Part shown: positions 762 through 14,793 of the stretch, one piece after another
How the letters are laid out: each line of letters begins with the position of its first letter
How positions within the stretch are numbered: the first letter of the stretch is position 1
DNA from: Candidatus Zhuqueibacterota bacterium
GTDB taxonomy: Bacteria; BS750m-G25
Length of the DNA stretch: 14,793 nucleotides
Reading direction: 5' to 3'
Assembly: GCA_016783505.1 (NCBI GenBank)
Contig: JADHWK010000052.1
Location: 1-14,793, forward strand
Program-made: the position numbers and the translations under genes
Notes under the pieces: generated by a model
The model's input: only the letters and a program-made list of their open reading frames with translations
The model's database searches: none
What the model was told of the DNA's origin: nothing

Positions 762-2726
762 TTATTTCAGCAGGGTCATCTTTCCTGCTTTGATAAAATT
801 ATTAATTTCAATAACATAGAAGTATATTCCTGAAGGTTGATAATCGGAATCCCAAACTTCTTGGTATATTCCCCTTCTTTTAAACCCATTTACCAGAACA
901 GAAACTTCTTGACCCAGTGAATTATAAATTGTGATACGGACCCGGCAATGCTTCGGAATTCCAAAAGGAATGATGGTTGAAGAGTTAAAGGGATTGGGGT
1001 AATTCTGACTCAGCCAGAACGCTGAGGCCTTATCTTTTTTTTTCTCCCGGACGGTTTCTTCTCCCCCGGCTTCATAAAACCGGGCCTTAAATTCCTGAAT
1101 ATACAGGTTAGCGATGTTGGAGTCGTGGATGATCAAAGTGTTTTCGTCGTTCTCGTTTTCTGCCGCCGATGTCCAGTTGTGAGAACCGGTGATGAGGATG
1201 GGATCGGAATCCGGATGCTCCCCGTCAATGATCATGTATTTATGGTGCAGCAGGCCATTCCCAATACCATCAACGAAGACCTCTGCCGGGGGATTCCAAG
1301 GGTTCCCCCCTCCCTGGCCCGAAAGGTCCCAGTATTCACTATATTGTCCCCAATAGGGATCTAAGGCTTGCGAAGAATCAAAAACTGCCTGCACCCGGAA
1401 ATCTGGATAGCTATCATCGTCATCCCATTTGACCTTCATGCCATCAGAGATTCCCTGTCGGGTAAAGGTATATATGCAAAAGAAGATCTCATAATCAGCG
1501 GTGGCAATTGCATCAAGGATACGTTGGGTAACGTCATCGGTGGGGGACATGTATTGTTCGATCAGAATGCTGTCCACAGTGAAGGAATGAGGGGTGTTAT
1601 CCGACTTTCGACTGCCGAAGCGGGAATCGGCGGGATCGGGGCTGAGCGTTGAGGAACCCCACATCTCCTCAAACTCCTGGGTATAGGCGGCGGCCAGGGT
1701 GCTGCTCCGGAATTCAACGACGTTATTGGCGTCGTATAAATTACCCCCATAGCTAAAATTAAAGGAACCGGTGAGCACCCAATCATCCTCTGGATCATCC
1801 CCCAGGCGGTGATCCACCACCAGAAACTTGTTGTGCATAATGCCGCCCCCAGTATTCTGTCCAAAGCTATCGTCTATCACGGGAATACCGGCATTCTCTA
1901 AGGCTTGTACCTCGGCATTGCCCCTTTTGGTATCATCAGTAATAAACCGCACTTCGACCCCCCGGTTGAGGGCGGCGATCAGGGCATCCCGCACATCCCA
2001 TAGGGTGAGATTGTAGACGCAGCAATCAACGGAATACTGGGCAGAGTCAATCCGGGCGGCGACCTTTTCCCCTAAGTCTACACCCCCATCGGCCTCCTGA
2101 GTGGTGGCGAAATCTGCCTCCACGCTTTTACTGAAATAGACCCTGATAATTCTCACCCCTCCCAGTCCCTGTGGGGTGGGAACGGATAAATCCTGAAAGT
2201 CAACAGAACAGTCATCGGTGTCCTCCCCGTGGGGGTTGCGTTCGATGGAATGTCCCTCGGGAACCCCGGGATGGGCGATAACCCCGGAGAAGCTCCCGTT
2301 TTCATAGGTAACCACGTCCACGTACTGGGCATGATCCTCCTGGCCTAACAGAATTTCATCCCCACCGTTGTTCAGGGCAAAGGTCATCTCGACGTCAGGG
2401 GTAAAACCAAAGGCCTGGGCGAAAGCGGTGCTGTTCTTGGCCACCAATAGATAACCCTGAGCGGGAATCACCGTTCCCGGGGGAAACTGTCCATAGCCCT
2501 CGTAACCCGTAGTGTCTTCCTCATCCCCAAAATACCATCCGCTGAGGTTCACATCGTCCTCGGTGGGGTTGTAAAGCTCCACAAATTCGGCCTCATCAGA
2601 ACCGGCTACATCGTAGTAGACCTCATTGATAACGACATGGTCGGCGATGTCCCCCAGAATTTCATGGTGAAGACAAAAAAGCAGGGAAAGGATTGTCAGG
2701 AATCTCATTATGTGATTCTTTTTCAT
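762..2726 (-). CDS. Secreted phospholipase D-family protein with lamin-tail domain and T9SS sorting tail
   Basis: Numbered from the first possible Met (2732), the domains are: signal peptide (about 3-27); lamin-tail-like domain (about 32-150, with INEVYYD...EFVELYNP and LSGWYF); two PLD domains; and a C-terminal type IX secretion sorting domain (about 574-656, NYPNPFN...YNSLGQEV...PSGIYFY). Both HKD motifs are intact: H300/K302/D307 with a following GSFN, and H496/K498/D503 with GSHN. An active phosphodiesterase fold is therefore expected, acting on phospholipid or nucleic acid outside the cell. The start at 2726 (third codon) is preferred because GAGG (2736-2739) lies 9 bases upstream of it but only 3 bases from the 2732 ATG. 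It follows the SPOR gene through a gap full of overlapping hairpins. The substrate is not determined; a secreted nuclease is as plausible as a phospholipase. Confidence 0.85.
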   Translation of the reverse strand: MKKNHIMRFLTILSLLFCLHHEILGDIADHVVINEVYYDVAGSDEAEFVELYNPTEDDVNLSGWYFGDEEDTTGYEGYGQFPPGTVIPAQGYLLVAKNSTAFAQAFGFTPDVEMTFALNNGGDEILLGQEDHAQYVDVVTYENGSFSGVIAHPGVPEGHSIERNPHGEDTDDCSVDFQDLSVPTPQGLGGVRIIRVYFSKSVEADFATTQEADGGVDLGEKVAARIDSAQYSVDCCVYNLTLWDVRDALIAALNRGVEVRFITDDTKRGNAEVQALENAGIPVIDDSFGQNTGGGIMHNKFLVVDHRLGDDPEDDWVLTGSFNFSYGGNLYDANNVVEFRSSTLAAAYTQEFEEMWGSSTLSPDPADSRFGSRKSDNTPHSFTVDSILIEQYMSPTDDVTQRILDAIATADYEIFFCIYTFTRQGISDGMKVKWDDDDSYPDFRVQAVFDSSQALDPYWGQYSEYWDLSGQGGGNPWNPPAEVFVDGIGNGLLHHKYMIIDGEHPDSDPILITGSHNWTSAAENENDENTLIIHDSNIANLYIQEFKARFYEAGGEETVREKKKDKASAFWLSQNYPNPFNSSTIIPFGIPKHCRVRITIYNSLGQEVSVLVNGFKRRGIYQEVWDSDYQPSGIYFYVIEINNFIKAGKMTLLK

Positions 2727-2735
2727 AATCATAAA

Positions 2736-3485: not shown

Positions 3486-3893
3486 ATGAGAGCAGAGATA
3501 TCTACAAAGAATATCAGGAGTGAATTCGTTCAAAGGGTGGAGGAATTAAGCGGGCAGGATCTCCTTGCCTGCTATCAATGCGGTAAGTGCTCTGCTGGAT
3601 GTCCCATAGTGGAAGAGATGGATATTATACCCAACCAGGCCATCCGATTGGCCCAACTTGGATTAGAAGATGAGGTCTTAAACTCAAAAACGATATGGCT
3701 CTGCGCTTCCTGTTTTATGTGTTTTTCACGCTGTCCCAAAGGAGTAGATTTTTCAAAAATAGCCGAGGCCCTGCGGATGATAGCCATGGGGACGGAGATC
3801 GAACATTATGGTCCCCAGCAGGTGCCATGGGAGATCGCTGCTGAAGCCCCCCAGCAAGCCCTGGTAAGCGCCTTCCGAAAATTCAGTCTTTAG
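3486..3893 (+). CDS. hdrC: Heterodisulfide reductase subunit C (HdrC-like), two [4Fe-4S]
   Basis: The 135-residue protein carries two complete C-x2-C-x2-C-x3-C-P motifs (C29/32/35/39 and C73/76/79/83), matching the HdrC electron-transfer subunit that passes electrons from HdrA to the catalytic HdrB. The length is usual for soluble HdrC and there is no membrane segment. The ATG at 3486 is chosen over the in-frame GTG at 3474 because GGAG (3476-3479) lies 6 bases upstream of the ATG, while the GTG has no ribosome-binding site. It is the first gene of the operon, directly behind the Rex-type operator, and is separated from hdrB by 9 bases. It acts in the cytoplasm as part of an HdrABC-like complex. 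Confidence 0.9.
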   Translation: MRAEISTKNIRSEFVQRVEELSGQDLLACYQCGKCSAGCPIVEEMDIIPNQAIRLAQLGLEDEVLNSKTIWLCASCFMCFSRCPKGVDFSKIAEALRMIAMGTEIEHYGPQQVPWEIAAEAPQQALVSAFRKFSL

Positions 3894-3902
3894 GAGATGA
3901 CA

Positions 3903-4826
3903 ATGAAATTATGTTACTACCCGGGATGCACCTTAAAGGATAAAACCACCAATCTCGATCAAACGACTATAGCCGCTGCCGATGAGCTAGGCATTGAATT
4001 GGTTGAGCTCCCCAACTGGACGTGCTGTGGGGCCACTTATCCCCTGACCGAGGAAAAAATCGCCAATCTGGTACCCCAGATCAGGATTCTGTATAATGTG
4101 ATGGTGGAAGGGGATAATCGGGTAACCACAACCTGCGCCTTCTGTTACAGCACCCTGAAGCGCGCCAACCGGGCAATTCTAAATGACCCCATTAAGAGAA
4201 AACGCATCAACGCTTATCTGAAGGATGACAAGCGGATACCGGAGTACGATAAGGAAACCGTCTATAATTTTAAGGATTACAATGGCGAGGTAAAGGTCGT
4301 TCACTTTTTAGAAGTCTTGAGGGACGATGTGGGGTTTGAAAACCTTTCTCTGAAGCTAAAAAAGAATCTTGAGGGACTGAAGGTGGCCCCTTATTACGGT
4401 TGCAAACTATTGCGTCCCCCCGAAGAGATGGAGTTTGATGACCCGGAGAATCCCCGGATTATGGAGGATTTTCTTGAAAGCCTCGGATGTGAAGTTATAG
4501 ATTATCCCTTTAAAACCGATTGTTGCGGATCCTACCTATCCCTCTCGGCGCCCGATGCTGCCACTCGTGCCTCCCATTTGATATTGAACTCAGCAGTAAA
4601 AAATGGAGCCGATCTAGTCGCCTTAACCTGTCCCCTCTGCTATTACAATCTGGACAGGAGACAGGAGGATATCGGTAACCGGTTTATGGACTTCAGCCCG
4701 ATACCCGTCTTATTCTTTACCCAGCTCCTAGCTATTGCCCTGGGAGTTGAAGATGAAATTCTAGGTTTAGATCAACATTATATTGATCCATCCCCGTTAT
4801 TAAGGGAGAAGAAACTGGTAACTTAG
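3903..4826 (+). CDS. hdrB: Heterodisulfide reductase subunit B (HdrB-like), catalytic, two CCG domains
   Basis: The 307-residue protein has two full CCG domains, which in HdrB each hold a non-cubane [4Fe-4S] cluster where a disulfide is cleaved. Domain 1 is C9-x31-C41C42-x35-C78-x2-C81, an exact fit to the family pattern. Domain 2 is C167-x39-C207C208-x34-C243-x2-C246. All ligands are present, so the subunit should be catalytically competent. The start at 3903 is preferred over the ATG at 3897 because AGGAG (3892-3896) is 6 bases from the former and directly abuts the latter. The natural substrate in methanogens is CoM-S-S-CoB; a bacterium of this type should use another disulfide, and none is identified by the operon. 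Confidence 0.9.
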   Translation: MKLCYYPGCTLKDKTTNLDQTTIAAADELGIELVELPNWTCCGATYPLTEEKIANLVPQIRILYNVMVEGDNRVTTTCAFCYSTLKRANRAILNDPIKRKRINAYLKDDKRIPEYDKETVYNFKDYNGEVKVVHFLEVLRDDVGFENLSLKLKKNLEGLKVAPYYGCKLLRPPEEMEFDDPENPRIMEDFLESLGCEVIDYPFKTDCCGSYLSLSAPDAATRASHLILNSAVKNGADLVALTCPLCYYNLDRRQEDIGNRFMDFSPIPVLFFTQLLAIALGVEDEILGLDQHYIDPSPLLREKKLVT

Positions 4827-4883
4827 CTCGCCCAAATACAGATCGGTTCTTAGTAAATCCGGAACATCAAATCAGGAACTGCT

Positions 4884-6176
4884 ATGAAGAGAATAGGTAT
4901 CTTTGTTTGTCATTGTGGAATAAACATCGCTGGTGTCATTGATGTCAAAAGGGCTGCCGAGGAATTGAGTAGCTATCCGGGGGTAGAATTTTCTACCGAT
5001 TATATCTACATGTGTTCCGAACCCGGTCAAATCCTGGTTAGGGATACGATCAGGGAGAAGAAACTTGATGGGGTGGTAGTCGCCGCCTGTTCCCCAACCT
5101 TACACGAGCTTACCTTTCGCACCGCCTCGAGGCTGGCCGGTCTGAATCCATATCAATGTGAAATAGCCAATATCAGGGAGCAGTGTAGCTGGGTTCATGC
5201 GGATAAGGAAAAGGCTTTCCAAAAGGCCCTAAAGATCATTAAGAGTACCATTGAGAAAGTTAAATATAATGAATCATTAGAGCCCATCAGCGTTCCTGTC
5301 AACCGACGAGCCCTGGTCATTGGGGGGGGGATCGCCGGGATTCAGGCGGCCCTGGATATCGCCAACAGCGGCTATGAAACCCTGCTGGTGGAAAGGCAAC
5401 CCTCCATTGGGGGGCACATGATTCAGCTCTCCGAGACTTTCCCAACCCTGGACTGTTCCCAGTGCATCCTTACCCCGAAGATGGTGGAGGCAGGACAGCA
5501 TCCAAAGATAAAATTATTCACCTACTCCGAAATAGAAGAAATTGGGGGTTATATTGGTAATTTTAAGGTAAAGATTAGGAAAAAGGCCAGATCCATTGAT
5601 GAAGAAGCATGCACGGGTTGTGGAGAGTGCATGGTAGCCTGTCCGGTGAGGAACGAGCCTCAAATTCAGCCTATCCCCAAATACAGTGAACAGATTGAGC
5701 CCGGGGAACTTAAAATACTTGACAGAATTATGGCAGCCTATGCACCCACTAATCCTGGCGTCCCGGGCAAGGAGATGCTTATTCAGATATTGCAAGATGT
5801 CAATCTCGAATATCACTATTTGCCAGACTATACCTTGAAGTATATCTCTGAGAGGCTACAGCTCCCGCTTTCAGTCGTCTATCACGTAGCCACTTTCTAC
5901 ACAGCCTTCAGCCTGAAACCGAGGGGTGAGCATCTAATCAGGGTTTGCATGGGTACTGCGTGTCATGCACGTGGGTCACCGAGGGTTCTGGAAGAGTTGG
6001 AGAGGCAGTTAGAAATACCCCGAGGCGAGACAACACCCGATCTCCAGTTCACTCTGGAAACGGTCAACTGTCTCGGCTGCTGTGCCCTTGGACCTGTTGT
6101 AATGGTTGATAGTAATTATCACTCCATCACTGCTAATAAGGTAGGAGGGTTACTTAAAAAATATAGTAAATCATAA
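4884..6176 (+). CDS. Fusion: N-terminal half of HdrA + NuoE-like [2Fe-2S] thioredoxin-fold domain
   Basis: Residues 1 to about 265 match the first part of HdrA. They include the N-terminal domain with C9-x-C11, C44, C69 and C101, the FAD Rossmann motif GGGIAG at 147-152, the conserved DCSQCILTPKM at 190-200, and the first ferredoxin motif C243/246/249/253 followed by P-V. HdrA homology then stops. Residues about 275-430 are a complete NuoE domain (HYLPDYTLKYISERLQ...VATFYTAF) with [2Fe-2S] ligands C355-x4-C360 and C396-x3-C400. The rest of HdrA is in the gene at 8121. AGGA about 7 bases before the ATG supports the start. The protein should give half of the bifurcating FAD site plus the NADH-module [2Fe-2S] cluster. 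This is a fusion, not a frameshift: the ORF is intact across the junction. Confidence 0.88.
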   Translation: MKRIGIFVCHCGINIAGVIDVKRAAEELSSYPGVEFSTDYIYMCSEPGQILVRDTIREKKLDGVVVAACSPTLHELTFRTASRLAGLNPYQCEIANIREQCSWVHADKEKAFQKALKIIKSTIEKVKYNESLEPISVPVNRRALVIGGGIAGIQAALDIANSGYETLLVERQPSIGGHMIQLSETFPTLDCSQCILTPKMVEAGQHPKIKLFTYSEIEEIGGYIGNFKVKIRKKARSIDEEACTGCGECMVACPVRNEPQIQPIPKYSEQIEPGELKILDRIMAAYAPTNPGVPGKEMLIQILQDVNLEYHYLPDYTLKYISERLQLPLSVVYHVATFYTAFSLKPRGEHLIRVCMGTACHARGSPRVLEELERQLEIPRGETTPDLQFTLETVNCLGCCALGPVVMVDSNYHSITANKVGGLLKKYSKS

Positions 6177-6237
6177 TAGGTGCTAAAAAATTTGCTTCGT
6201 CAGACAAAAATTCCTTTTATGAAAACCGGGAGTAGAG

Positions 6238-8103
6238 ATGTCAAGACTTAATAGCATAAAAGAGCTAGATAAATTGAGCAAGGAGATTCTTAGCGGCAAG
6301 GACCCCAAGAGGAAGTGTATTACTGTCTGTGGTGGTACAGGTTGTATTGCATATGGAAGCCCGAATGTTGTGGACGCTTTTAAGAAAGAATTGAAGCAAC
6401 AAAAGCTTGAAGATAAGGTGGACATCCTGGTAACTGGTTGTCACGGATTCTGCGAAAGAGGTCCTTTAGTTGTAATTCGTCCTGAAGGAATCTTCTACCA
6501 AAGAATAAAGCCCGAGAATATTCATGAGATTATCAAAGATACGGTAATTGATGGCAAGATTCTCGATCATCTTCTCTATACTGATCCCATAACTGGCGAG
6601 AAAATTGTTTACGAGCATGAAGTACCGTTTTACAAGAAGCAAGTACGACTTGTCTTTGGCAACAACGGATTTATCGAACCCACGAGTATCACTGACTATA
6701 TTGGGATCGGTGGGTATAGCGCCCTTGCAAAAGTGCTCTCAGGTATGACCCCTGAGAAAGTAATTGATATTGTAAAAAAATCTGGACTCAGAGGACGGGG
6801 AGGGGGCGGTTTCCCAACAGGTGTCAAATGGGAGTCATGTCGAAAAGCAGAGGGCGATGTTAGATATGTCCTATGCAATGCCGACGAGGGAGATCCTGGG
6901 GCCTATATGGATAGAAGTGTATTAGAGGGAAATCCTCACTCTGTTTTAGAAGGAATGATTATAGGAGCGTATGCTATTGGCTCACATGAAGGATATATCT
7001 ATGTCCGACAGGAGTATCCATTAGCCGTAAAACACTTTGGAATTGCACTGGAGAAGACTCGTGAATATGGACTCCTGGGAAAGAATATATTGGGTTCAGG
7101 TTTTGATTTCGATATTACGATAAATAGGGGCGGTGGTGCCTTTGTCTGTGGTGAATCAACAGCTCTTATGGCATCTATTGAGGGGAATCCAGGCGAACCG
7201 AGAGCGAAGCATGTCCATACTGTTGAAAAAGGACTATGGGATAGGCCGAGTAACCTTAATAATGTAGAGACCTGGGCCAATGTGCCACTTATCATTAATA
7301 AAGGTTGGGAGTGGTATTCCAAAATTGGAACAGAAAAGAGCAAGGGAACAAAAATATTTTCTCTTGTGGGTAAAGTTAATAATACTGGGTTAGTAGAAAT
7401 TCCGATGGGCATGACCTTGCGAGAAGTCGTGTATGACATAGGAGGAGGAATAAGAGGAGGGAAGAACTTTAAGGCAGTTCAAACTGGCGGCCCATCTGGA
7501 GGCGTAATACCCGAGAGTCTTCTTGACCTTCCAGTTGACTTTGAACGCCTCACAGAAGCTGGGAGTATGATGGGCTCAGGTGGAATGATAGTGATGGATG
7601 ATAGTAACTGTATGGTGGATATTGCCAAATACTTTATCAATTTTCTAAAGGATGAATCCTGCGGCAAATGTACCCCTTGCCGCCAAGGGCTAATACAAAT
7701 GCACCAAATTCTAACGGATATTTGTCAAGGCCAAGGCGTAATAGAGGATTTGGCACTCCTTGATAAGCTGTGTTGGATTGTCAGTGAAACTTCCCTGTGT
7801 CAACTGGGTGCCACTGCTCCAAATCCAGTATTAACTACTATAAGATATTTCAGGGATGAATACCAGGCCCACATCATTGACCGGAAATGTCCGGGCGGGG
7901 TCTGTAAGGAGTTGATTCATTATTTTGTGGATGAAGAGAGATGCGTTAGCTTAGGTCACGGATGTGGAGCATGCCGGAGGAGTTGTCCCCAGCAAGCTAT
8001 CAGTGGGGAGAAGAACCAACTCCACCGTATTGACCAAAACAAATGTAACAAATGTGGAATTTGTTTGGATACTTGCAAATTTGAAGCGATTATTCTGGAA
8101 TAG
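6238..8103 (+). CDS. NuoF/HydB-like NADH-oxidizing FMN subunit with extra ferredoxin domains
   Basis: The 621 residues comprise, in order: an N-terminal thioredoxin-fold [2Fe-2S] domain (C31-x4-C36, C68-x3-C72); the FMN/NADH-binding core (GLRGRGGGGFPTG at 183-195, then NADEGDPGA); a SLBB region; the NuoF [4Fe-4S] site (C475/478/481 and C521); and a C-terminal two-cluster ferredoxin. This is the long architecture of bifurcating hydrogenase and related flavoenzyme B subunits, not the shorter complex I NuoF. It oxidizes NADH or reduces NAD+ at FMN. The first C-terminal ferredoxin motif is stretched (C569-x6-C576-x2-C579-x3-C583-P). GGAG 5 bases before the ATG sets the start. Codons look more A+T-rich than in the HdrA-derived parts of its neighbours. 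Confidence 0.92.
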   Translation: MSRLNSIKELDKLSKEILSGKDPKRKCITVCGGTGCIAYGSPNVVDAFKKELKQQKLEDKVDILVTGCHGFCERGPLVVIRPEGIFYQRIKPENIHEIIKDTVIDGKILDHLLYTDPITGEKIVYEHEVPFYKKQVRLVFGNNGFIEPTSITDYIGIGGYSALAKVLSGMTPEKVIDIVKKSGLRGRGGGGFPTGVKWESCRKAEGDVRYVLCNADEGDPGAYMDRSVLEGNPHSVLEGMIIGAYAIGSHEGYIYVRQEYPLAVKHFGIALEKTREYGLLGKNILGSGFDFDITINRGGGAFVCGESTALMASIEGNPGEPRAKHVHTVEKGLWDRPSNLNNVETWANVPLIINKGWEWYSKIGTEKSKGTKIFSLVGKVNNTGLVEIPMGMTLREVVYDIGGGIRGGKNFKAVQTGGPSGGVIPESLLDLPVDFERLTEAGSMMGSGGMIVMDDSNCMVDIAKYFINFLKDESCGKCTPCRQGLIQMHQILTDICQGQGVIEDLALLDKLCWIVSETSLCQLGATAPNPVLTTIRYFRDEYQAHIIDRKCPGGVCKELIHYFVDEERCVSLGHGCGACRRSCPQQAISGEKNQLHRIDQNKCNKCGICLDTCKFEAIILE

Positions 8104-8120
8104 GAGAAAGGGGAATTCAA

Positions 8121-9890
8121 GTGGGAACGTTCGTCATTGATGGGCAGGAGGTCCAGGCTGATCCGAACAAAACGGTATTAGAAATTGCTCAAGAGCTTGG
8201 CCTAAATATCCCAACGCTCTGTTACCATAAATCACTCTCTCCATACGGAGCCTGTCGGATCTGCACAGTTGAGATCATCTGGGGAAAAAGATCACGTCTC
8301 ATCACTGCTTGTACCTACCCCGCTTGGGAGGGGATGGAGGTTAAGACAAATTCAGAGAAGGTGATAAGAGCCCGGAAGTTGTTATTGGAACTGAAGCTTG
8401 CCGAAGCGCCGGGTTCACCGGAGATCAAGAAACTGGCACATGAATATGGTGTTGAAAAGACGGAATTCAAGGTTGTCGGAGATGAGGATAACAGATGCAT
8501 CATGTGCGGCTTGTGTGTGCGCATCTGTGAAGATGTTATGGGTATAGGTGCAATTGGGTTTAAAAATCGTGGAGATCGTCGGGAAATTACCCCCCCACTT
8601 GAGGAGTATTCCGATGTTTGTTCTACCTGTGGAGCCTGCGTTTATGTTTGTCCCACTGGAGCGATTAAACTCGAAGAGTTCACTGACAGAAAACCGATTC
8701 CAATCCCCTCTGAATTCGACGCGGGATTAACCTCAAGACCATGTATTTACACGCCATTCCCCCAAGCTGTGCCAAATAAGCCGGTCATAGATAGGGAAAA
8801 CTGCATGTTCTTTAAAACGGGGGACTGTAGAATCTGCGAATCGGTGTGTCAGCCTCAGGCAATAAAGTATGATCAAGAGGATATAATCATTGAGGAGGAG
8901 GTGGGGGCCGTGGTGGTGGCCACCGGTTTTGATCTTTATCCTATGATAAAGCTGGGCGAATACGGGGGTGGAAAGATCAAAAATGTCATTGACGGATTGG
9001 CCTTTGAGAGGATGCTCTCAGCTTCAGGACCCACTCAAGGCGAGGTCAGAAGGCCTTCTGACGGGGTGGTTCCCAAGGAGGTGGTATTCATCCAGTGCGC
9101 TGGTTCCCGGGATCCGGAGCAGAACCTGCCCTATTGTTCCAAGATCTGTTGTATGTACACCACCAAACACGCCATGCTCTACAAACATCGGGTCCCTGAT
9201 GGTCAGCCCTACGTATTCTACATTGACATGCGAACCGGGGGGAAGGGGTATGAGGAGTTCTACCAGCGGGCCATTGATGAGGATGATGTGGTTTTCCTCA
9301 GGGGCAAGGTGTCCAAGATATACGAGGAGGATGGTAAAGTAGTCGTCTGGGGGGCGGATACCCTGACCGGGAAAAAAGTAGAGATCAGGGCCGATATGGC
9401 AGTTTTGGCCATGGGGATCGTCCCTAGTGAAGGCACCGATGAACTTGTTAGAAAATTAAAGATCGGCTGCGGCGATGGAGGATTTTTAACGGAAGCCCAT
9501 CCCAAACTGCGCCCGGTGGAAAGCATGTCCGCCGGTTTCTTCCTGGCCGGTTGCGCCCAGGCACCCAAAGACATCCCCGAGGTAGTGGCCCAGGCCAGCG
9601 GAGCCGCCAGCAAGGTAGCCGCTCTCTTTTCGCAGGAAAGGCTATATCACGAACCTATTGTGGCGGTAGTTGATGAGGACATCTGCAGCGGTTGTAAGAT
9701 TTGTATTCCTATGTGTCCTTACGAAGCCAGAGAATTTGATGAGGAGAAAAAGATAGTTAGTGTCAAGGAGGTGCTGTGTGAGGGATGCGGAGCCTGTGTG
9801 GCGGCCTGTCCCTCTGGAGCCACCCAGCAGAGAAACTTGCGGGATGATCAGATATTCAAGATGATAGAAGCCGGGGTGGAGGTGACCTGA
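8121..9890 (+). CDS. Fusion: NuoG-like N-terminal iron-sulfur module + C-terminal half of HdrA
   Basis: Residues 1-190 resemble the NuoG/HydA N-terminus: plant-type [2Fe-2S] (C34, C45, C48, C64) and two [4Fe-4S] motifs (C126/129/132/136 and C167/170/173/177). From about 196 (SEFDAGL...YTPFPQAVPNK) the protein is the second part of HdrA: the C228-x7-C236-x2-C239-x3-C243 cluster, the FAD-domain strand VVVATGFDLYP, Q-C-A-G-S-R and Y-C-S-K-I-C-C at 325-344, the FAD-closing motif FFLAGCAQAPKDI, and two terminal ferredoxins (C522/525/528/532, C553/556/559/563). No H-cluster or molybdopterin domain follows, so it is neither a hydrogenase nor a formate dehydrogenase. The start is GTG, about 7 bases after a GGGG run. 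It is the last gene of the operon. Confidence 0.88.
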   Translation: MGTFVIDGQEVQADPNKTVLEIAQELGLNIPTLCYHKSLSPYGACRICTVEIIWGKRSRLITACTYPAWEGMEVKTNSEKVIRARKLLLELKLAEAPGSPEIKKLAHEYGVEKTEFKVVGDEDNRCIMCGLCVRICEDVMGIGAIGFKNRGDRREITPPLEEYSDVCSTCGACVYVCPTGAIKLEEFTDRKPIPIPSEFDAGLTSRPCIYTPFPQAVPNKPVIDRENCMFFKTGDCRICESVCQPQAIKYDQEDIIIEEEVGAVVVATGFDLYPMIKLGEYGGGKIKNVIDGLAFERMLSASGPTQGEVRRPSDGVVPKEVVFIQCAGSRDPEQNLPYCSKICCMYTTKHAMLYKHRVPDGQPYVFYIDMRTGGKGYEEFYQRAIDEDDVVFLRGKVSKIYEEDGKVVVWGADTLTGKKVEIRADMAVLAMGIVPSEGTDELVRKLKIGCGDGGFLTEAHPKLRPVESMSAGFFLAGCAQAPKDIPEVVAQASGAASKVAALFSQERLYHEPIVAVVDEDICSGCKICIPMCPYEAREFDEEKKIVSVKEVLCEGCGACVAACPSGATQQRNLRDDQIFKMIEAGVEVT

Positions 9891-10023: not shown

Positions 10024-11955
10024 ATGAGACTCACATTACGGACAAAGTTAATCATTAGTTTTTTAGTCGTCGTCCTTATCACCGGTTTTTTTGCCACCTG
10101 GGTGGGGGTGCGCTTGATTGGATCTGGGATTATACGGCAAGCCCAGGATAAGGTGAGGGTTGATCTCAATTCTGCAAGACATATATACCAAGATAAATTA
10201 GAAGAAGTAAAGTATGTTGTCCGTTTCAATGTTAATAGATTTTTTATAAGGGATGTTCTTTTAGGTGGTGATATAGAATTTTTGCAAGATGAGTTGAGAA
10301 GGATTAGAGAAAGAGAAGCATTAGATGTTCTTACGGCTACCGATAAAAATGGAATTGTTGTTTTTAGAGCCAAGAACCCTGCGGTCTATGGGGATAGCCA
10401 AGCTGGGGATGAAGTGGTAAACTTTACCCTTTCTAATAGGGAAGTTGTGGCATCAACGGTGATCGTTAGCCGGGAGGAATTATTAAAAGAAGGGAACGAT
10501 CTTGCTGAGAGAGCCCATATAAAGTTAATCCCCACACCCAGGGCCAAGCCGAGGCCGGAAGGTGTGGAGACTTCCGGAATGATGATCAAGGCGGCGGCCC
10601 CTGTTTTCGACTATGGTGGTAATTTGTTAGGGGTTTTATACGGGGGTAAATTGCTCAACAGGGATTATGAAATTGTGGATGAAGTGAAGGAAACAGTCTA
10701 TCAGGGTCAGACCTATAAAGGAAAGGACATGGGGACGGCGACTATTTTTCAGGGGGACCTGCGAATTTCCACAAACGTCAAAAGGAAGGATGGCAGTAGG
10801 GCTATCGGAACCCGGGTATCCGAGGAAGTCAATAATCAAGTATTAGTTAAGGGATTGCCGTGGATCGAGAGGGCGTTTGTGGTCAACGATTGGTACATCA
10901 CTGCATATGAACCGATAAGGAATATCCGAGGAAACATTATTGGAATCCTATACGTAGGAATTCTTGAAGGGAAATTCGTGGATATGAGAAGGAGGACGAT
11001 GTGGATGTTTTTAGGTATAACCTTTGCTGGTATAATGGTTGCTACGATTGCTTCATACTTTCTGGCCAACGGGGTATTGAAGCCCATCAAGCATTTAGTT
11101 TGGGCCTCTAAACAAATTGCCGGGGGGGATTTGACCTACAGGGTAAAGCTCAAAACAAAGGGTGAAATTGGCGAGTTGGGTGAAGCATTTAATTTCATGG
11201 CCTCATCCCTTAAGGATAGGGATGAGCAGTTAAAGGAGAGGGCTAAACAGACCATAATGAAGTCCGAAAGGTTAGCCACCCTGGGGAAGTTGGCGGCGGG
11301 GGTGGCTCACGAGATTAATAATCCAATTAGTGGCATTTTAACCTATATTAAGTTGCTTTCTAAGAAATTAGAGAAAGGAGAGGATACTTCTGAATTTAAG
11401 CGTTACTTAACAATAATGGAGCGGGAAACAGCGCGAGTTGGCCGGACAGTTAAGAATTTGCTCGATTTCTCCCGAAAACAGGAACCTGATATAACCTCCA
11501 TTGACATTAATGAGGTAATAGAACAGAGTCTTCTCCTCCTAAATAAATCATTTACGATAGGAAATATAGATGTTAAGCGTGAAAGTATGGGTCATATACC
11601 AAAGATATTGGGTGACTTCGGTCAGCTCCAACAAGTTTTTATAAATCTCGTTCTTAATTCTATGCAGGCCATGAAAGAGGGTGGAAGGCTCCAAATAAAA
11701 ATCCGATCCGAAGAAAGTTCAGGAAGATTGTGTTTTGTTAGAATAGAGGTTTCTGATAATGGTTGTGGTATACCAAAGCGCAATATACCCAAGATTTTTG
11801 ATCCGTTCTTTACAACAAAGGGTGGGAAAGATGGTATTGGTTTAGGACTTGGACTTTCTATTGTTCAAAGCATTATTAATGCACATAACGGGCATATCCA
11901 TGTAGAAAGTAAAGTAAAAGAGGGAACCACTTTTACTGTTTGGTTACCTATTTGA
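10024..11955 (+). CDS. Membrane sensor histidine kinase with double-Cache domain, HAMP and HisKA/HATPase
   Basis: The 643-residue kinase has a first membrane helix (about 8-32) and a large extracytoplasmic region of about 290 residues that resembles a Cache_3-Cache_2 double-Cache ligand sensor (APVFDYGGNLLGVLYGG and YEPIRNIRGNIIGILYVG repeats). A second helix (about 327-348), a HAMP linker and a HisKA domain follow, with phospho-acceptor H429 in the AHEINNP motif. The HATPase domain carries N-box NLVLNSMQAM, DNGCGIP and GLGLGLSI. Double-Cache kinases bind small molecules such as carboxylates or amino acids; the ligand here is unknown. There is no clear Shine-Dalgarno before the ATG. Its TGA overlaps the next gene's ATG, so the cognate regulator is almost certainly the response regulator two genes on. 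Confidence 0.93.
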   Translation: MRLTLRTKLIISFLVVVLITGFFATWVGVRLIGSGIIRQAQDKVRVDLNSARHIYQDKLEEVKYVVRFNVNRFFIRDVLLGGDIEFLQDELRRIREREALDVLTATDKNGIVVFRAKNPAVYGDSQAGDEVVNFTLSNREVVASTVIVSREELLKEGNDLAERAHIKLIPTPRAKPRPEGVETSGMMIKAAAPVFDYGGNLLGVLYGGKLLNRDYEIVDEVKETVYQGQTYKGKDMGTATIFQGDLRISTNVKRKDGSRAIGTRVSEEVNNQVLVKGLPWIERAFVVNDWYITAYEPIRNIRGNIIGILYVGILEGKFVDMRRRTMWMFLGITFAGIMVATIASYFLANGVLKPIKHLVWASKQIAGGDLTYRVKLKTKGEIGELGEAFNFMASSLKDRDEQLKERAKQTIMKSERLATLGKLAAGVAHEINNPISGILTYIKLLSKKLEKGEDTSEFKRYLTIMERETARVGRTVKNLLDFSRKQEPDITSIDINEVIEQSLLLLNKSFTIGNIDVKRESMGHIPKILGDFGQLQQVFINLVLNSMQAMKEGGRLQIKIRSEESSGRLCFVRIEVSDNGCGIPKRNIPKIFDPFFTTKGGKDGIGLGLGLSIVQSIINAHNGHIHVESKVKEGTTFTVWLPI

Positions 11956-12497
11956 TGGAAAAGAATCCTATTTATGTTATATCAATCGGTGAGATTGAGC
12001 AAACGATTTTAGATTTTTTGTCGCGGAGAATAGAGTTGAGATTTAATTGTCCTTCCATTATCTTAGAGAGTATAGAAAAACCTCATTATGCTTTTGATAA
12101 TAAGAGAAATCAATTTTTTTCAAGCAGGATTCTAAAGGAATTAATACATATTATCCCCCTTGATGCATTAAAAATATTGGGGATTACTTGGGTTGATTTG
12201 TATATTCCTGTTTTAACCTTTGTTTTTGGACAAGCTCAGCTTGGTGGGAAAGCGGCTTTAATCTCACTTCACCGTTTATCCCCGAAATATTACGGTTCAA
12301 CAGCGAATAACTCTCTACTTCTGGAGAGAGCCGCTAAGGAAATAGTCCACGAGCTTGGCCATACATTTAGGTTAACCCATTGTCGGGATAAAATGTGTGT
12401 AATGCATTTTTCTGCTTCTATAAGAAATATAGATGTAAAAGGGGATATTTTTTGTGACAGTTGCTTAAAGATATTAGAATCGAGGAAAAAGAAATGA
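11955..12497 (+). CDS. Archaemetzincin-family zinc metalloprotease, Gly-to-Arg in zinc motif
   Basis: The 180-residue protein fits bacterial/archaeal archaemetzincins in length and C-terminal motif: H132-E-x2-H136-x5-H142-C143-x4-C148-x-M150 and a final C167-x2-C170. The first two His and H142 would bind the catalytic zinc, E133 is the base, and the four Cys hold the second structural zinc typical of the family. The family consensus has Gly three residues after the second His (HExxHxxG); here it is Arg139 (codon AGG, 12369-12371). The ATG at 11955 overlaps the kinase TGA (TGATG), so it is chosen over the in-frame TTG at 11940. The stop overlaps the regulator start. There is no signal peptide, so it is cytoplasmic. 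Physiological substrates of archaemetzincins are largely unknown. Confidence 0.88.
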   Translation: MEKNPIYVISIGEIEQTILDFLSRRIELRFNCPSIILESIEKPHYAFDNKRNQFFSSRILKELIHIIPLDALKILGITWVDLYIPVLTFVFGQAQLGGKAALISLHRLSPKYYGSTANNSLLLERAAKEIVHELGHTFRLTHCRDKMCVMHFSASIRNIDVKGDIFCDSCLKILESRKKK

Positions 12498-13855
12498 GAA
12501 TTAGAGAGACAACCCGTATTTTGGTAGTTGACGATGAATTGATTATGAGGGAATCATTGTCTGATTGGTTAAGAGAAGATGGGTATGGAGTAGAAGCAGT
12601 AGATAATGGATACAAGGCTTTGGAGAAAGTCAAAAAGGAGCGTTGGGATATATTGCTTGTTGATTTAAAAATGCCTGGAATAGATGGCATTGAGGTAATG
12701 CAAAGGGTGAAGAAAATAAATAAGGGTCTCCCCGTTGTCATAATAACTGCATATGCAACTGTTGACACTGCAGTTAAAGCGATCAAGGAGGGAGCTTATG
12801 ATTATATTGTTAAGCCATTTAATCCTGAGGAAATAGGACTTATCATTAGGAATATAATTGCACATCAAAACTTAATCAAAGAGAATATATACCTACGCCA
12901 GGAACTAAAAAAAAGATACGAGTTTAAAGACATTATCGGCAAGAGCCATAAGATGCAGGATGTTCTTGAAATGATTAAGACTGTTGCAAAAAGCAACACA
13001 ACCGTATTGATTGAGGGAGAAAGCGGTACTGGTAAGGAACTCGTTGCGAGGGCAATACACTCATTGAGTTTAAGAAATAAGGAACCATTCGTTGCTGTAT
13101 CCTGTGCTGCCTTGCCTGAAACTTTGTTAGAATCAGAATTGTTTGGATATGAAAAGGGTGCTTTTACAGGAGCAGTAGCAACAAGAATAGGAAATTTTGA
13201 GCTTGCGGATAATGGAACACTATTTTTGGATGAGGTTGGCGATACTAGTCTAAAGACGCAAGCAGATTTGTTGAGAGTTTTGGAGGAAAAAGAGTTCAGA
13301 AGGGTTGGTGGCACAAAATTAATTGAAGTTGATGTAAGAATTATTTCAGCTACTAATAGAAATTTAAAAAAATTAATAAATGAAGATAAATTTAGGGAAG
13401 ATTTATACTATAGGTTGAATGTTGTTTCTATTCATGTTCCTCCATTAAGAGAAAGAAAGGAAGACATACCTCTATTTGCTGAACACTTTTTAAAGAAGTA
13501 TTCAATTGAAAATAAAAAAGATGTAGAATGGATAGAAGAAGATGCTTTAAGCCTACTAATGAAATATGATTGGCCTGGTAATGTAAGGGAACTTGAGAAT
13601 GTGATAGAAAGAGCAGTTGTATTGGTAAAGCGAAATTTTATTGGCGTAGATGAGCTGCCGACATTTGTAAAAATAGCGGAAAAAGAAGAGTTTAAACCTT
13701 CGCTAAACAGGCCATTAAAGGAAATTGAGCGCGAGTATATATTTTGGGTTCTTAAAGCTAATCAATGGAAGATAAAGAAAGTCGCCACTATCTTAGGGAT
13801 AGATCGTACCACTCTCTATAATAAAGTAAAAAAATATAATCTCAAACAGAATTAA
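12494..13855 (+). CDS. NtrC-family sigma54-dependent response regulator
   Basis: The 453-residue protein has a receiver domain (1 to about 120, with the D-D-E acidic pocket, phospho-acceptor D57 in VDLKMPG and the conserved K in IVKPF). An AAA+ sigma54 activator domain follows (Walker A GESGTGKE at 175-182, GAFTGA loop at 222-227, Walker B GTLFLDE). A Fis-type helix-turn-helix closes it (KKVATILGIDRTTLYNKVKKY). The complete GAFTGA loop means it can contact sigma54 RNA polymerase. Its ATG shares ATGA with the archaemetzincin stop, and GAGG lies 8 bases upstream, so it is preferred to the TTG at 12461. No convincing -24/-12 sigma54 promoter is seen in this window, so its targets lie elsewhere or are not recognizable here. 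Confidence 0.95.
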   Translation: MRIRETTRILVVDDELIMRESLSDWLREDGYGVEAVDNGYKALEKVKKERWDILLVDLKMPGIDGIEVMQRVKKINKGLPVVIITAYATVDTAVKAIKEGAYDYIVKPFNPEEIGLIIRNIIAHQNLIKENIYLRQELKKRYEFKDIIGKSHKMQDVLEMIKTVAKSNTTVLIEGESGTGKELVARAIHSLSLRNKEPFVAVSCAALPETLLESELFGYEKGAFTGAVATRIGNFELADNGTLFLDEVGDTSLKTQADLLRVLEEKEFRRVGGTKLIEVDVRIISATNRNLKKLINEDKFREDLYYRLNVVSIHVPPLRERKEDIPLFAEHFLKKYSIENKKDVEWIEEDALSLLMKYDWPGNVRELENVIERAVVLVKRNFIGVDELPTFVKIAEKEEFKPSLNRPLKEIEREYIFWVLKANQWKIKKVATILGIDRTTLYNKVKKYNLKQN

Positions 13856-13912: not shown

Positions 13913-14755
13913 TTAAACCAAAAGAAAATCCTTTATTAAACTTTCCCATTCTTCTTTATCTAACTTATCGGTCGTACGGATTAGAGTTCCACCATCTACT
14001 ACAGTGACACCGATATCTCTTTCAATCCTGTAACGCAACCTATCCACATCCCCCTCAAACCATACTTTTGCTTCTTCCCCAAATAAGAGATTTTTAAGAC
14101 TATTCTGTAAATTCGATGGTTCCATTGTAATCACCCATCTCATATAAGGATCTTCATTCAAAAGGGATACATCATCTTTGAGCTTCTCATTCGTATACCT
14201 AATTCTACCATCAATTGGAGAACATAGCCTTACATTCCTTTCTCCGCATTTAAGCCCAAAAAGAGGACTTTCCTTATGGATTCTTATGCCTTTCTCTGGC
14301 AAATCTATTCCAGTTACCTTACCCAATAGCTTATGAGCAAGATCATCTATTCCTAACCTAATAGTGCCATCTTTCCTGGTTTCAATCCAGATGTGCTTAG
14401 GATGATAGAAAAATTTCTCAACCAAAGCAAACCCTTCTATAAAACTCACCTTTCGCTCAGTCCGTGAAGCTGCGATACATATCGGTTCATAAGGGCATGC
14501 ATTGCATGCGTAGATACGACAAATTTTCCAAAAGCCTGGTGGGAAATATCTATGCTCCCCCCTTGCTTTATATTTTTTCATTTCCATATCTCCTCCCTTG
14601 TTTGCCTTTGCAATAGCCTTGTACTCTAGACAATCATTATGTTTTTCACTTAAGCATAAACTGAGCTTATCTGAGCTACTCGAAGGAATCATCTTCTTCA
14701 CTGGATAAGCTTCACAATATCTTACCAAAACCTCTTCTAAAAATGGACACTGCAT
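13913..14755 (-). CDS. GcvH-like (lipoyl H-protein) domain protein with Cys-rich N-terminus
   Basis: The 280-residue protein has three parts. Residues 1-48 form a Cys-containing segment (C3, C14, C34, C42; CPFLEEVLVRYC). A second motif follows, C79-x4-C84-x2-C87-x5-C93 (WKICRIYACNACPYEPIC), which may bind zinc or an iron-sulfur cluster. Residues about 113-240 resemble the glycine-cleavage H protein (YHPKHIWIE...LGIDDLAHKLLG...IDLPEKG...SPIDGRI). K169, in FGLKCG, is where the lipoyl-lysine would be, though the spacing to the SP-x-x-G turn is longer than in canonical GcvH (11 residues instead of 8) and Cys follows the Lys. Lipoylation is therefore possible but unproven. An AAAGGAGG ribosome-binding site is 5 bases from the second ATG (14755) and only 2 from the first (14758). 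No glycine decarboxylase genes are nearby. Confidence 0.75.
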   Translation of the reverse strand: MQCPFLEEVLVRYCEAYPVKKMIPSSSSDKLSLCLSEKHNDCLEYKAIAKANKGGDMEMKKYKARGEHRYFPPGFWKICRIYACNACPYEPICIAASRTERKVSFIEGFALVEKFFYHPKHIWIETRKDGTIRLGIDDLAHKLLGKVTGIDLPEKGIRIHKESPLFGLKCGERNVRLCSPIDGRIRYTNEKLKDDVSLLNEDPYMRWVITMEPSNLQNSLKNLLFGEEAKVWFEGDVDRLRYRIERDIGVTVVDGGTLIRTTDKLDKEEWESLIKDFLLV

Positions 14756-14793
14756 CATTACCTCCTTTCATAAAAAATATGGCAGGATACCCC

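Follow-up and report, generated by a model that had tools for sequence, protein, structure and literature searches.

The window analysed here, a contig of 14,793 nucleotides from Candidatus Zhuqueibacterota bacterium, carries the genes and features listed in Table 1. The coordinates and reading frames given in the initial annotation for the three genes between 4884 and 9890 were correct. For hdrC the upstream sequence makes ATG 3486 the likely start, with a GGAGAAAGGA site ahead of it, and the frame is also open from GTG 3474. Its product is 71% identical to HdrC of locus L083 and 64% identical to that of L169, an intact operon. HdrB matches TIGR03288 with an E-value of 4e-49, under that model's curated cut-off. 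A promoter scan of the window scored no better than shuffled sequence. The downstream histidine kinase is possibly a regulator that lies outside the enzyme; HK/RR54 pairs also adjoin the related loci L042, L092, L107 and L109.

Table 1. Genes and features of the window, with the basis of each assignment
Feature	Coordinates	Strand	Basis or content
hdrC	3486..3893	+	Fer4_8/Fer4_17 and CoB_CoM_SS_C matches
hdrB	3897..4826	+	two CCG domains (PF02754, two stretches); non-cubane cluster motifs intact
hdrA-N::nuoE fusion, 430 aa	4884..6176	+	HdrA ~1/3 to ~257, linker, NuoE/BfuC ~285-430
Inserted ferredoxin domain, first cysteine motif	5610..5642	+	aligned to Mt HdrA C246/249/252/256
nuoF/bfuB, 621 aa	6238..8103	+	Pfam domains and motifs
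nuoG-N(bfuA)::hdrA-C fusion, 589 aa	8121..9890	+	profile matches and predicted structure
Inserted ferredoxin domain, second cysteine motif	8802..8849	+	aligned to Mt HdrA C293/296/299/303
E296 (equivalent of Mt HdrA bifurcation residue E356)	9006..9008	+	alignment; role per PMC12054007
K349 (equivalent of Mt HdrA bifurcation residue K409)	9165..9167	+	alignment; role per PMC12054007
HdrA C-terminal 2x[4Fe-4S] domain, residues ~516-567	9666..9821	+	all eight cysteines kept
sCache_3/HAMP histidine kinase, downstream	10024..11955	+	Pfam
Sigma-54-type response regulator	12461..13855	+	Pfam

Composition of the split HdrA and its inserted module

The gene at 4884 had been proposed to join the N-terminal part of HdrA to NuoE, and that at 8121 to join the N-terminal module of NuoG to the C-terminal part of HdrA, and both assignments held. 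The first product matches residues 5-259 of 5odc_A (E 1e-93) and, from its residue 296 onward, NuoE/HydC (E 1e-40). In the second, residues 4-191 match BfuA/NuoG, with 9mqx_A the best match (E 9e-42), and from residue 192 the match is to HdrA residues 265-653 of 8rvu_a (E 2e-116). Residues 1-190 are thus BfuA-like, with one 2Fe-2S and two 4Fe-4S motifs, and residues 192-589 correspond to HdrA from position 257 to the C-terminus. The covalent wiring at both junctions is real. A structure predicted for the 589-residue fusion from a 75-row alignment (pLDDT 88) superposes on 5odh_A 257-647 over residues 192-580 (Z 33) and on Bfu/NuoG subunits from residue 1 to about 185 (Z 23 for residues 1-191 against 9mqx BfuA), so that each half is predicted to adopt the fold of its parent.

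As HdrA homology ends at about 257-259 and resumes at about 257, essentially nothing has been lost or duplicated, as had been claimed; the two pieces hold 257 and 398 HdrA residues. The break had been placed after the first ferredoxin motif, which is right, and it can be located more exactly: it lies inside the inserted ferredoxin domain and separates the two half-motifs. The first motif (C243-x2-C246-x2-C249-x3-C253) is the final HdrA element ahead of the break in hdrA-N::nuoE, and the second is formed by C228, C236, C239 and C243 of nuoG-N::hdrA-C. A whole HdrA was looked for in either piece and was absent from both. Likewise, no intact close hdrA was found in the window's genome, which is only 60% complete; besides the window's locus it carries another split copy (C61, 53%), along with HdrA genes of the Sec(TGA) type at 51% or below.

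The gene between the two fusions is NuoF-like, as first described, and more exactly encodes the NuoF of the electron-bifurcating Bfu type. It comprises an N-terminal thioredoxin-like 2Fe-2S domain, the FMN/NADH domain, ESCGKCTPCR (B1), CPGGVCK and a C-terminal 2x[4Fe-4S] domain. By motif alone, the BfuBC core is present with its clusters B1-B5, as is the 2Fe-2S of BfuC, with a longer first interval in the C-terminal 2x4Fe-4S of NuoF and CX4C...CX3C in NuoE; the clusters assigned to these motifs are in part presumptive. Residues 1-191 of the nuoG-N fusion supply the 2Fe-2S and distal 4Fe-4S of a BfuA subunit. The description of the insert as a 'NADH-dehydrogenase cassette' thus stands for the NADH module, but its clusters are those of a bifurcating Bfu (HydABC-like) core and not of plain complex I. 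It is the clusters beyond B1 that separate bifurcating Bfu from non-bifurcating NuoF (Schut 2022, PMC9304861).

The HdrA ligand positions (N-domain, Cys197, inserted and C-terminal ferredoxin domains) are Cys throughout in the window. The FAD site GGGIAGIQAA lies in the N-terminal half, and E296 and K349 in the C-terminal half. The window thus has the FAD site, E356/K409 equivalents and ligand cysteines of bifurcating (type I) HdrA, although not its single polypeptide of ~650 residues, HdrA being spread over two genes. Here and in every type 1 relative examined, both halves of HdrA are intact, as are the cofactor cysteines and the equivalents of E356 and K409. We conclude from these motifs that the cofactor ligands of both flavoproteins are all kept.

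In separate trees the two HdrA halves have the same nearest relative, the intact HdrA of L055/G321 (76% and 75% identity), whose operon has the ordinary order hdrC-hdrB-hdrA-mvhD. Because of this shared relative, it appears that one gene was split by insertion with almost nothing lost, which supports the proposed nested insertion, with an NADH/FMN cassette lodged in a single hdrA; two unrelated HdrA duplicates are ruled out on the same ground. We conclude that, as far as sequence comparison can tell, the ancestral hdrA of an hdrCBA operon has been opened inside its inserted ferredoxin domain, with one cysteine motif left on either side of the break. The gap is filled by nuoE, nuoF and the nuoG N-module; the upstream half runs on into nuoE, and nuoG-N leads into the downstream half.

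Distribution and origin of the split

The two-sided split had been put forward as not known to be a described enzyme class. We found no published description of an hdrA split around nuoEFG in the freely readable literature searched; it is, however, a recurrent architecture rather than a single oddity. The NuoG-HdrA junction was present in 10 of the 386 sampled genomes and in about 26 named contigs from many phyla. The architecture is common to several phyla with conserved gene order, and its uniqueness to the window's genome is ruled out by the same junction elsewhere and by the second copy in that genome. In most single-HdrA relatives the NuoG junction alone is fused, hdrA-N being a separate gene of about 290 aa; two-sided fusions occurred at four loci in the comparison. 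Some relatives carry a GltD domain in their NuoF in place of the C-terminal 2x4Fe-4S domain. Natural variants include split only, one-side fused, both-sides fused, GltD insert and tandem HdrA, the tandem form being that of Desulfatibacillum or Desulfobacteraceae relatives, and allow tracing of how such machines are put together. All named members of the split architecture are MAG or single-cell contigs, and MAG records titled chromosomes (CP070751, CP070787) have the same architecture. A chance match, frameshift or chimera is ruled out by the E-values, the open frames and the many independent genomes. Even though the window comes from a MAG of 60% completeness, as a single contig of 14.8 kb, an assembly chimera or decaying gene is extremely improbable, since the same arrangement recurs in independently assembled genomes and the window's frames are open and its ligands intact.

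On an HdrA tree (IQ-TREE) the split state requires at least seven changes. With AU-test groups that were partly picked after the tree was seen, a single origin of all split HdrA was rejected (p 0.00016), and the p-value was 1e-72 for a joint HdrA origin of the four two-sided fusions and 0.03 for that of the window and L073 only. Since the same cut is seen in many unrelated microbes, NADH units seem to have been plugged into the HdrA port again and again during evolution. A less probable but serious alternative is that an old split-hdrA cassette, or a few of them, spread, with resident HdrA replacing the halves or cassettes being swapped between hosts, so that many of the splits are only apparent. 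A joint cassette origin of the four loci fused on both sides is not rejected by the NuoF tree (AU p 0.63), and the cassette of the Spirochaetales locus L088 groups firmly with the tandem-HdrA locus L099 whereas both pieces of HdrA at L088 fall with the intact HdrA of the adjacent gene. Such exchange would, however, need joint replacement of both HdrA halves every time, and the split loci form no single cassette clade, with at least four changes on starred branches per split type. Neither the NuoF tree nor the NuoEFG tree pointed to a source for the window's own cassette.

Predicted electron transfer and alternatives

Electron bifurcation allows anaerobes to reduce ferredoxin using weak donors, and HdrA and Bfu are two bifurcating flavoproteins. 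Our main reading, to which we give a probability of roughly 0.6, is that the five genes at 3486-9890 encode one soluble complex in which a Bfu-type NAD(H) module is predicted to be coupled within a split HdrABC ('Hdr-Bfu'). The HdrA halves would assemble in trans. Since the break separates one cysteine motif of the inserted ferredoxin domain from the other, that domain, probably with its two [4Fe-4S] clusters, should be built from two chains, which would place the last NuoG-module cluster next to it. Electrons could then pass from NAD(H) to the FMN of NuoF, through the NuoF/NuoG Fe-S clusters to the inserted ferredoxin domain, and onward to the bifurcating FAD of HdrA, the HdrC/HdrB non-cubane clusters and a disulfide, for which a DsrC-like protein, a heterodisulfide or another acceptor are candidates. 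Ferredoxin, as third partner, would interact at one or both of two C-terminal sites, the 2x[4Fe-4S] domain of NuoF and the ferredoxin domain of HdrA. We infer an enzyme of the NAD(H)/ferredoxin/disulfide type with two flavin sites.

No mvhD was found in the window, although L169, the nearest intact operon, has the gene, and homologues occur elsewhere in the window's genome. The lack of this usual electron-input subunit from the operon fits the cassette having taken over input. Many relatives of the split locus retain mvhD and an mvhG-like gene, and the role may therefore differ between members.

The nearby loss of mvhD leaves fewer ports, and non-bifurcating HdrA complexes exist (PMC9430772), so HdrA and the NuoG module might merely wire NADH to HdrB in an NADH:disulfide reductase uncoupled from ferredoxin. 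We regard this as quite improbable, given that the window keeps both diagnostic residues of bifurcating HdrA and the extra NuoF clusters diagnostic of bifurcating Bfu, and that two ferredoxin-type outlets would be superfluous for a pure wire. Reverse or confurcating use, in which thiol and a low-potential donor drive NAD+ reduction via the Bfu module, is unlikely yet deserves more weight. The insertion site is the anticipated low-potential electron exit of HdrA (PMC12350162), and if electrons leave rather than enter through that domain, NADH could be the product and not the donor; the donors could be reduced ferredoxin or, in the many relatives with mvhD and the mvhG-like gene, MvhD-linked. 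Against it, the window's operon is without mvhD, and the sequence gives no direction.

Tentatively, the main reading can be widened to a widespread, undescribed 'Hdr-Bfu' class, with a ferredoxin domain whose [4Fe-4S] clusters are shared by two polypeptides, Bfu FMN and HdrA FAD bifurcating centres in series, and repeated hdrA splits at one point. A recurrent natural HdrA-Bfu fusion at the HdrA exit port marks where an NADH module can plug in, and the proposed double bifurcation, for which benzoyl-CoA reductase has been the case argued until now, becomes testable in a smaller system. It also poses an annotation hazard, since the two pieces will be labelled 'HdrA' and 'NADH dehydrogenase', as partial or duplicate genes.

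Comparison with known systems

In methanogen HdrABC-MvhAGD and Elp-Hdr (5ODC, 8RVU), with which the window's HdrA halves align end to end with all cofactor ligands kept, HdrA is one chain and electrons enter via MvhD, which the window's operon lacks. Type III HdrA (ANME-1, Bathyarchaeota and Moorella-like; PMC12054007, PMC9012536, PMC9430772) likewise has an NAD(P)H-reactive module within the inserted ferredoxin domain, a GltD/NfnB insert by which, it is proposed, NADH can take the place of ferredoxin at that site (PMC12054007); in Moorella, an HdrA interrupted by a GltD domain oxidises NADH, as cited in PMC9430772. Since archaeal type III HdrA takes GltD at the split point, the insertion site itself is already known, and L080, L082 and L083 use the same region. 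Type III HdrA, however, has one GltD domain in one polypeptide; the window has no GltD insert in a single HdrA chain but a three-gene NuoEFG cassette and hdrA in two genes.

With the Bfu family (HydABC-like; Schut et al. 2022, PMC9304861) the window shares the NuoE/F/G-like core, the Bfu Fe-S motifs and an A subunit feeding a third partner, but none of the types listed there has HdrABC as third partner via a split HdrA. Class II benzoyl-CoA reductase Bam(B-I), or Bam-Bfu, likewise has NuoEFG-like and HdrA-like modules in one complex and proposed double bifurcation; its HdrA-type module is not described as split in PMC9304861, and a Pfam scan of eight proteins of the window showed no W-pterin BamB-type subunit. 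The net reaction would most likely be reversible NADH/ferredoxin/thiol-disulfide coupling, the one proposed for FlxABCD-HdrABC (Ramos 2015, cited in PMC10553843). The Flx NADH module is unrelated to the window's, and HdrA in that system is intact; the operon's Pfam matches included no Flx-type NAD-binding subunits, its NADH module being Complex1_51K. Compared with FlxABCD-HdrABC, Hdr-Bfu would have a permanently tethered NADH unit and, in series, two flavin sites predicted to be of the bifurcation type.

The divided HdrA and its fusion partners

The window carries a five-gene operon, running from hdrC to the 589-aa ORF, with intergenic gaps of 3-61 bases. In the 430-aa protein, residues 3-256 correspond to solved HdrA (5odc_A 5-259, E 1.2e-93) and residues 296-428 match NuoE/HydC. 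In the 589-aa protein, residues 4-191 match the BfuA/NuoG N-module and residues 192-586 are HdrA (8rvu_a 265-653, E 1.5e-116; 5odc_A up to 648). Both fusions are therefore as the initial annotation had described them. HdrA homology ends right behind CTGCGECMVACPVR and restarts at PIPSEFD, so that about 653 HdrA residues are present, each once, and relative to the nearest intact HdrA (L055: ...CGVCVEKCPKKVPSEFERFLG...) no notable part is absent; the claim that the pieces make up one HdrA of about 660 residues, with little lost or duplicated, thus held.

Genes of the window
Feature	Position	Strand	Remarks
PLD-nuclease-like protein	762-2732	-	T9SS C-terminal sorting domain
hdrC	3486-3893	+	
hdrB	3897-4826	+	both CCG domains kept
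HdrA-N::NuoE fusion ORF	4884-6176	+	430 aa
NuoF ORF	6238-8103	+	621 aa
NuoG N-module::HdrA-C fusion ORF	8121-9890	+	589 aa
Archaemetzincin-family metalloprotease	11940-12497	+	between kinase and response regulator
281-aa protein	13913-14758	-	Cys-rich N-terminal part, then GcvH-like lipoyl domain

The inserted ferredoxin domain of HdrA has two CysX2CysX2CysX3Cys-type motifs (C246-256 and C293-303 in the reference Mt HdrA). Alignment with Mt HdrA shows that the upstream protein carries the first of these motifs and the downstream protein the second; the break had been put after the first motif, which stands, and can now be located inside the ferredoxin domain. Clusters in ferredoxin folds are usually held by three ligands of one motif plus a single ligand of the other; with the motifs on separate proteins, both [4Fe-4S]-type clusters of this domain would bridge two chains.

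The window and all aligned type 1 relatives (see below) retain the cysteines at the ligand positions of Mt HdrA, and likewise the equivalents of E356 and K409, the residues that tell bifurcating HdrA apart (PMC12054007). NuoF keeps the ESCGKCTPCR (B1) and CPGGVCK motifs together with its N-terminal thioredoxin-like 2Fe-2S and C-terminal 2x4Fe-4S domains; according to Schut et al., clusters beyond B1 separate bifurcating Bfu from complex-I-like NuoF (PMC9304861). In a structure predicted for NuoG::HdrA-C from a 75-row alignment (pLDDT 88.4), the HdrA part, residues 192-580, superposed on 5odh_A 257-647 with Z 33.3. Residues 1 to ~185 superposed on complex I NuoG and on 9mqx_A, which is the BfuA subunit of an aldehyde oxidoreductase that bifurcates electrons.

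Histidine kinase and sigma-54 response regulator pairs lie, in several lineages, beside the operons of the window (10024-13855) and of L092, L107, L109 and L042, which suggests shared regulation. The T9SS sorting domain suggests that the host is a relative of the FCB group.

Distribution and locus types

Like gene orders were found in other genomes. With a 201-aa query spanning the NuoG/HdrA boundary, 386 genomes sampled across the domain were searched; 10 of them gave continuous junction matches, and the window's own genome gave two more. A scan of named genomes gave about 26 junction contigs among the matches listed, where they came from Spirochaetales, Fibrobacterota, Planctomycetota, Desulfobacteraceae, Bipolaricaulota, Cloacimonadota, Armatimonadota, Calditrichota, GN15 and Neomarinimicrobiota, and also from contigs of MAGs or single cells that bear the labels Thermoplasmata and Altiarchaeales.

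The loci take two forms. Type 1 has the order hdrC-hdrB-hdrA(1-260)-nuoE-nuoF-nuoG::hdrA-C, and frequently includes mvhD and an mvhG-like gene. Most of these loci (L037, L038, L078-L082, L101, L102, L104) have hdrA-N as a gene of its own, ~290 aa long; the window and L073, L075 and L088 have it fused to nuoE. Type 2 has a tandem HdrA, the first copy of which has neither the N-domain nor the C-terminal ferredoxin domain; NuoE is in most cases joined to HdrA(144-260), and the NuoG::HdrA::HdrA protein has a length of ~1,090 aa. The own genome holds a second, differently built split system on another contig (L037, 2425-13701), in which several signalling-type genes (CBS/ATPase, PHP, histidine-kinase-like) separate the unfused hdrA-N from nuoE, and NuoF is fused to a GltD domain. 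At L073, a 408-aa HdrC-HdrB-like (HdrD-type) ORF (6155-7381) overlaps the end of nuoG::hdrA-C, in place of an upstream hdrC/hdrB.

Origin of the split

Nested insertion into a single hdrA, as proposed initially, is supported by trees made separately for the N- and C-halves: in both, the nearest neighbour of the window is the intact HdrA L055 (76% and 75% identity, respectively). The L055 operon is hdrC-hdrB-hdrA-mvhD, with HdrB 67% and HdrC 64% identical to those of the window. Given this shared relative and these identities, the window operon looks like an L055-like operon that has gained nuoEFG and lost mvhD.

Across loci, both repeated insertion and exchange are possible. A supported tree of 51 HdrA requires 7 changes of the split state, each of them forced by starred branches. 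The AU test rejected a single clade for the 14 split HdrA taken together (p 0.00016) and for the four two-sided fusions (p 1e-72), and did so weakly for the window with L073 (p 0.03). The cassette trees are less resolved than the HdrA tree and allow a joint cassette origin. The two HdrA halves of L088 join the intact HdrA of their own operon (bootstrap 87, SH-aLRT 97) and the L088 cassette joins a tandem-type locus, so that halves and cassette have partly separate histories.

Proposed mechanism and relation to known systems

In solved complexes the HdrA FAD is fed by MvhD and the high-potential electron is taken by HdrBC, the inserted ferredoxin domain being where the low-potential electron is expected to leave and FmdF to dock (PMC9012536, PMC12350162). 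As NuoG is tied to this port, the NAD(H)/FMN module would sit at the low-potential exit. Electrons of NADH may enter HdrA there, as has been proposed for GltD-type HdrA, or the Bfu core may receive the low-potential branch of HdrA. In the reading that we favour, this is an NAD(H)/ferredoxin/disulfide enzyme that would work reversibly through two flavin sites arranged in series.

The site of the split is also where another HdrA at L080, L082 and L083 has a GltD domain. Such inserts are known from ANME-1 and Bathyarchaeota (PMC9012536, PMC12054007) and from Moorella (PMC9430772). At L082 (2333-5734) and L080 (13774-17196), the HdrA portion of the GltD-inserted protein forms a sister branch to that operon's split HdrA, so GltD insertion and nuoEFG splitting are found side by side in close paralogues. 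The 1,477-aa protein of L083 (6107-10540) consists of an HdrA part, a GltD insert, an HdrA C part and a second HdrA, a layout similar to that of Moorella HdrA. Elsewhere in the own genome (L040), two HdrA genes (6303-8840 and 10576-13668) contain TGA in frame at the position of Cys194/197 and probably encode selenocysteine HdrA; one is fused to MvhD and one is a tandem HdrA.

The component parts are already known, as are the insertion site and the idea of an NADH-linked Hdr. In the open literature searched, we found no account of a multi-gene Bfu cassette splitting hdrA, of the two-sided fusion or of its recurrence. The published precedent for Bfu and HdrA in one complex is the Bam complex, as a proposed association (PMC9304861).
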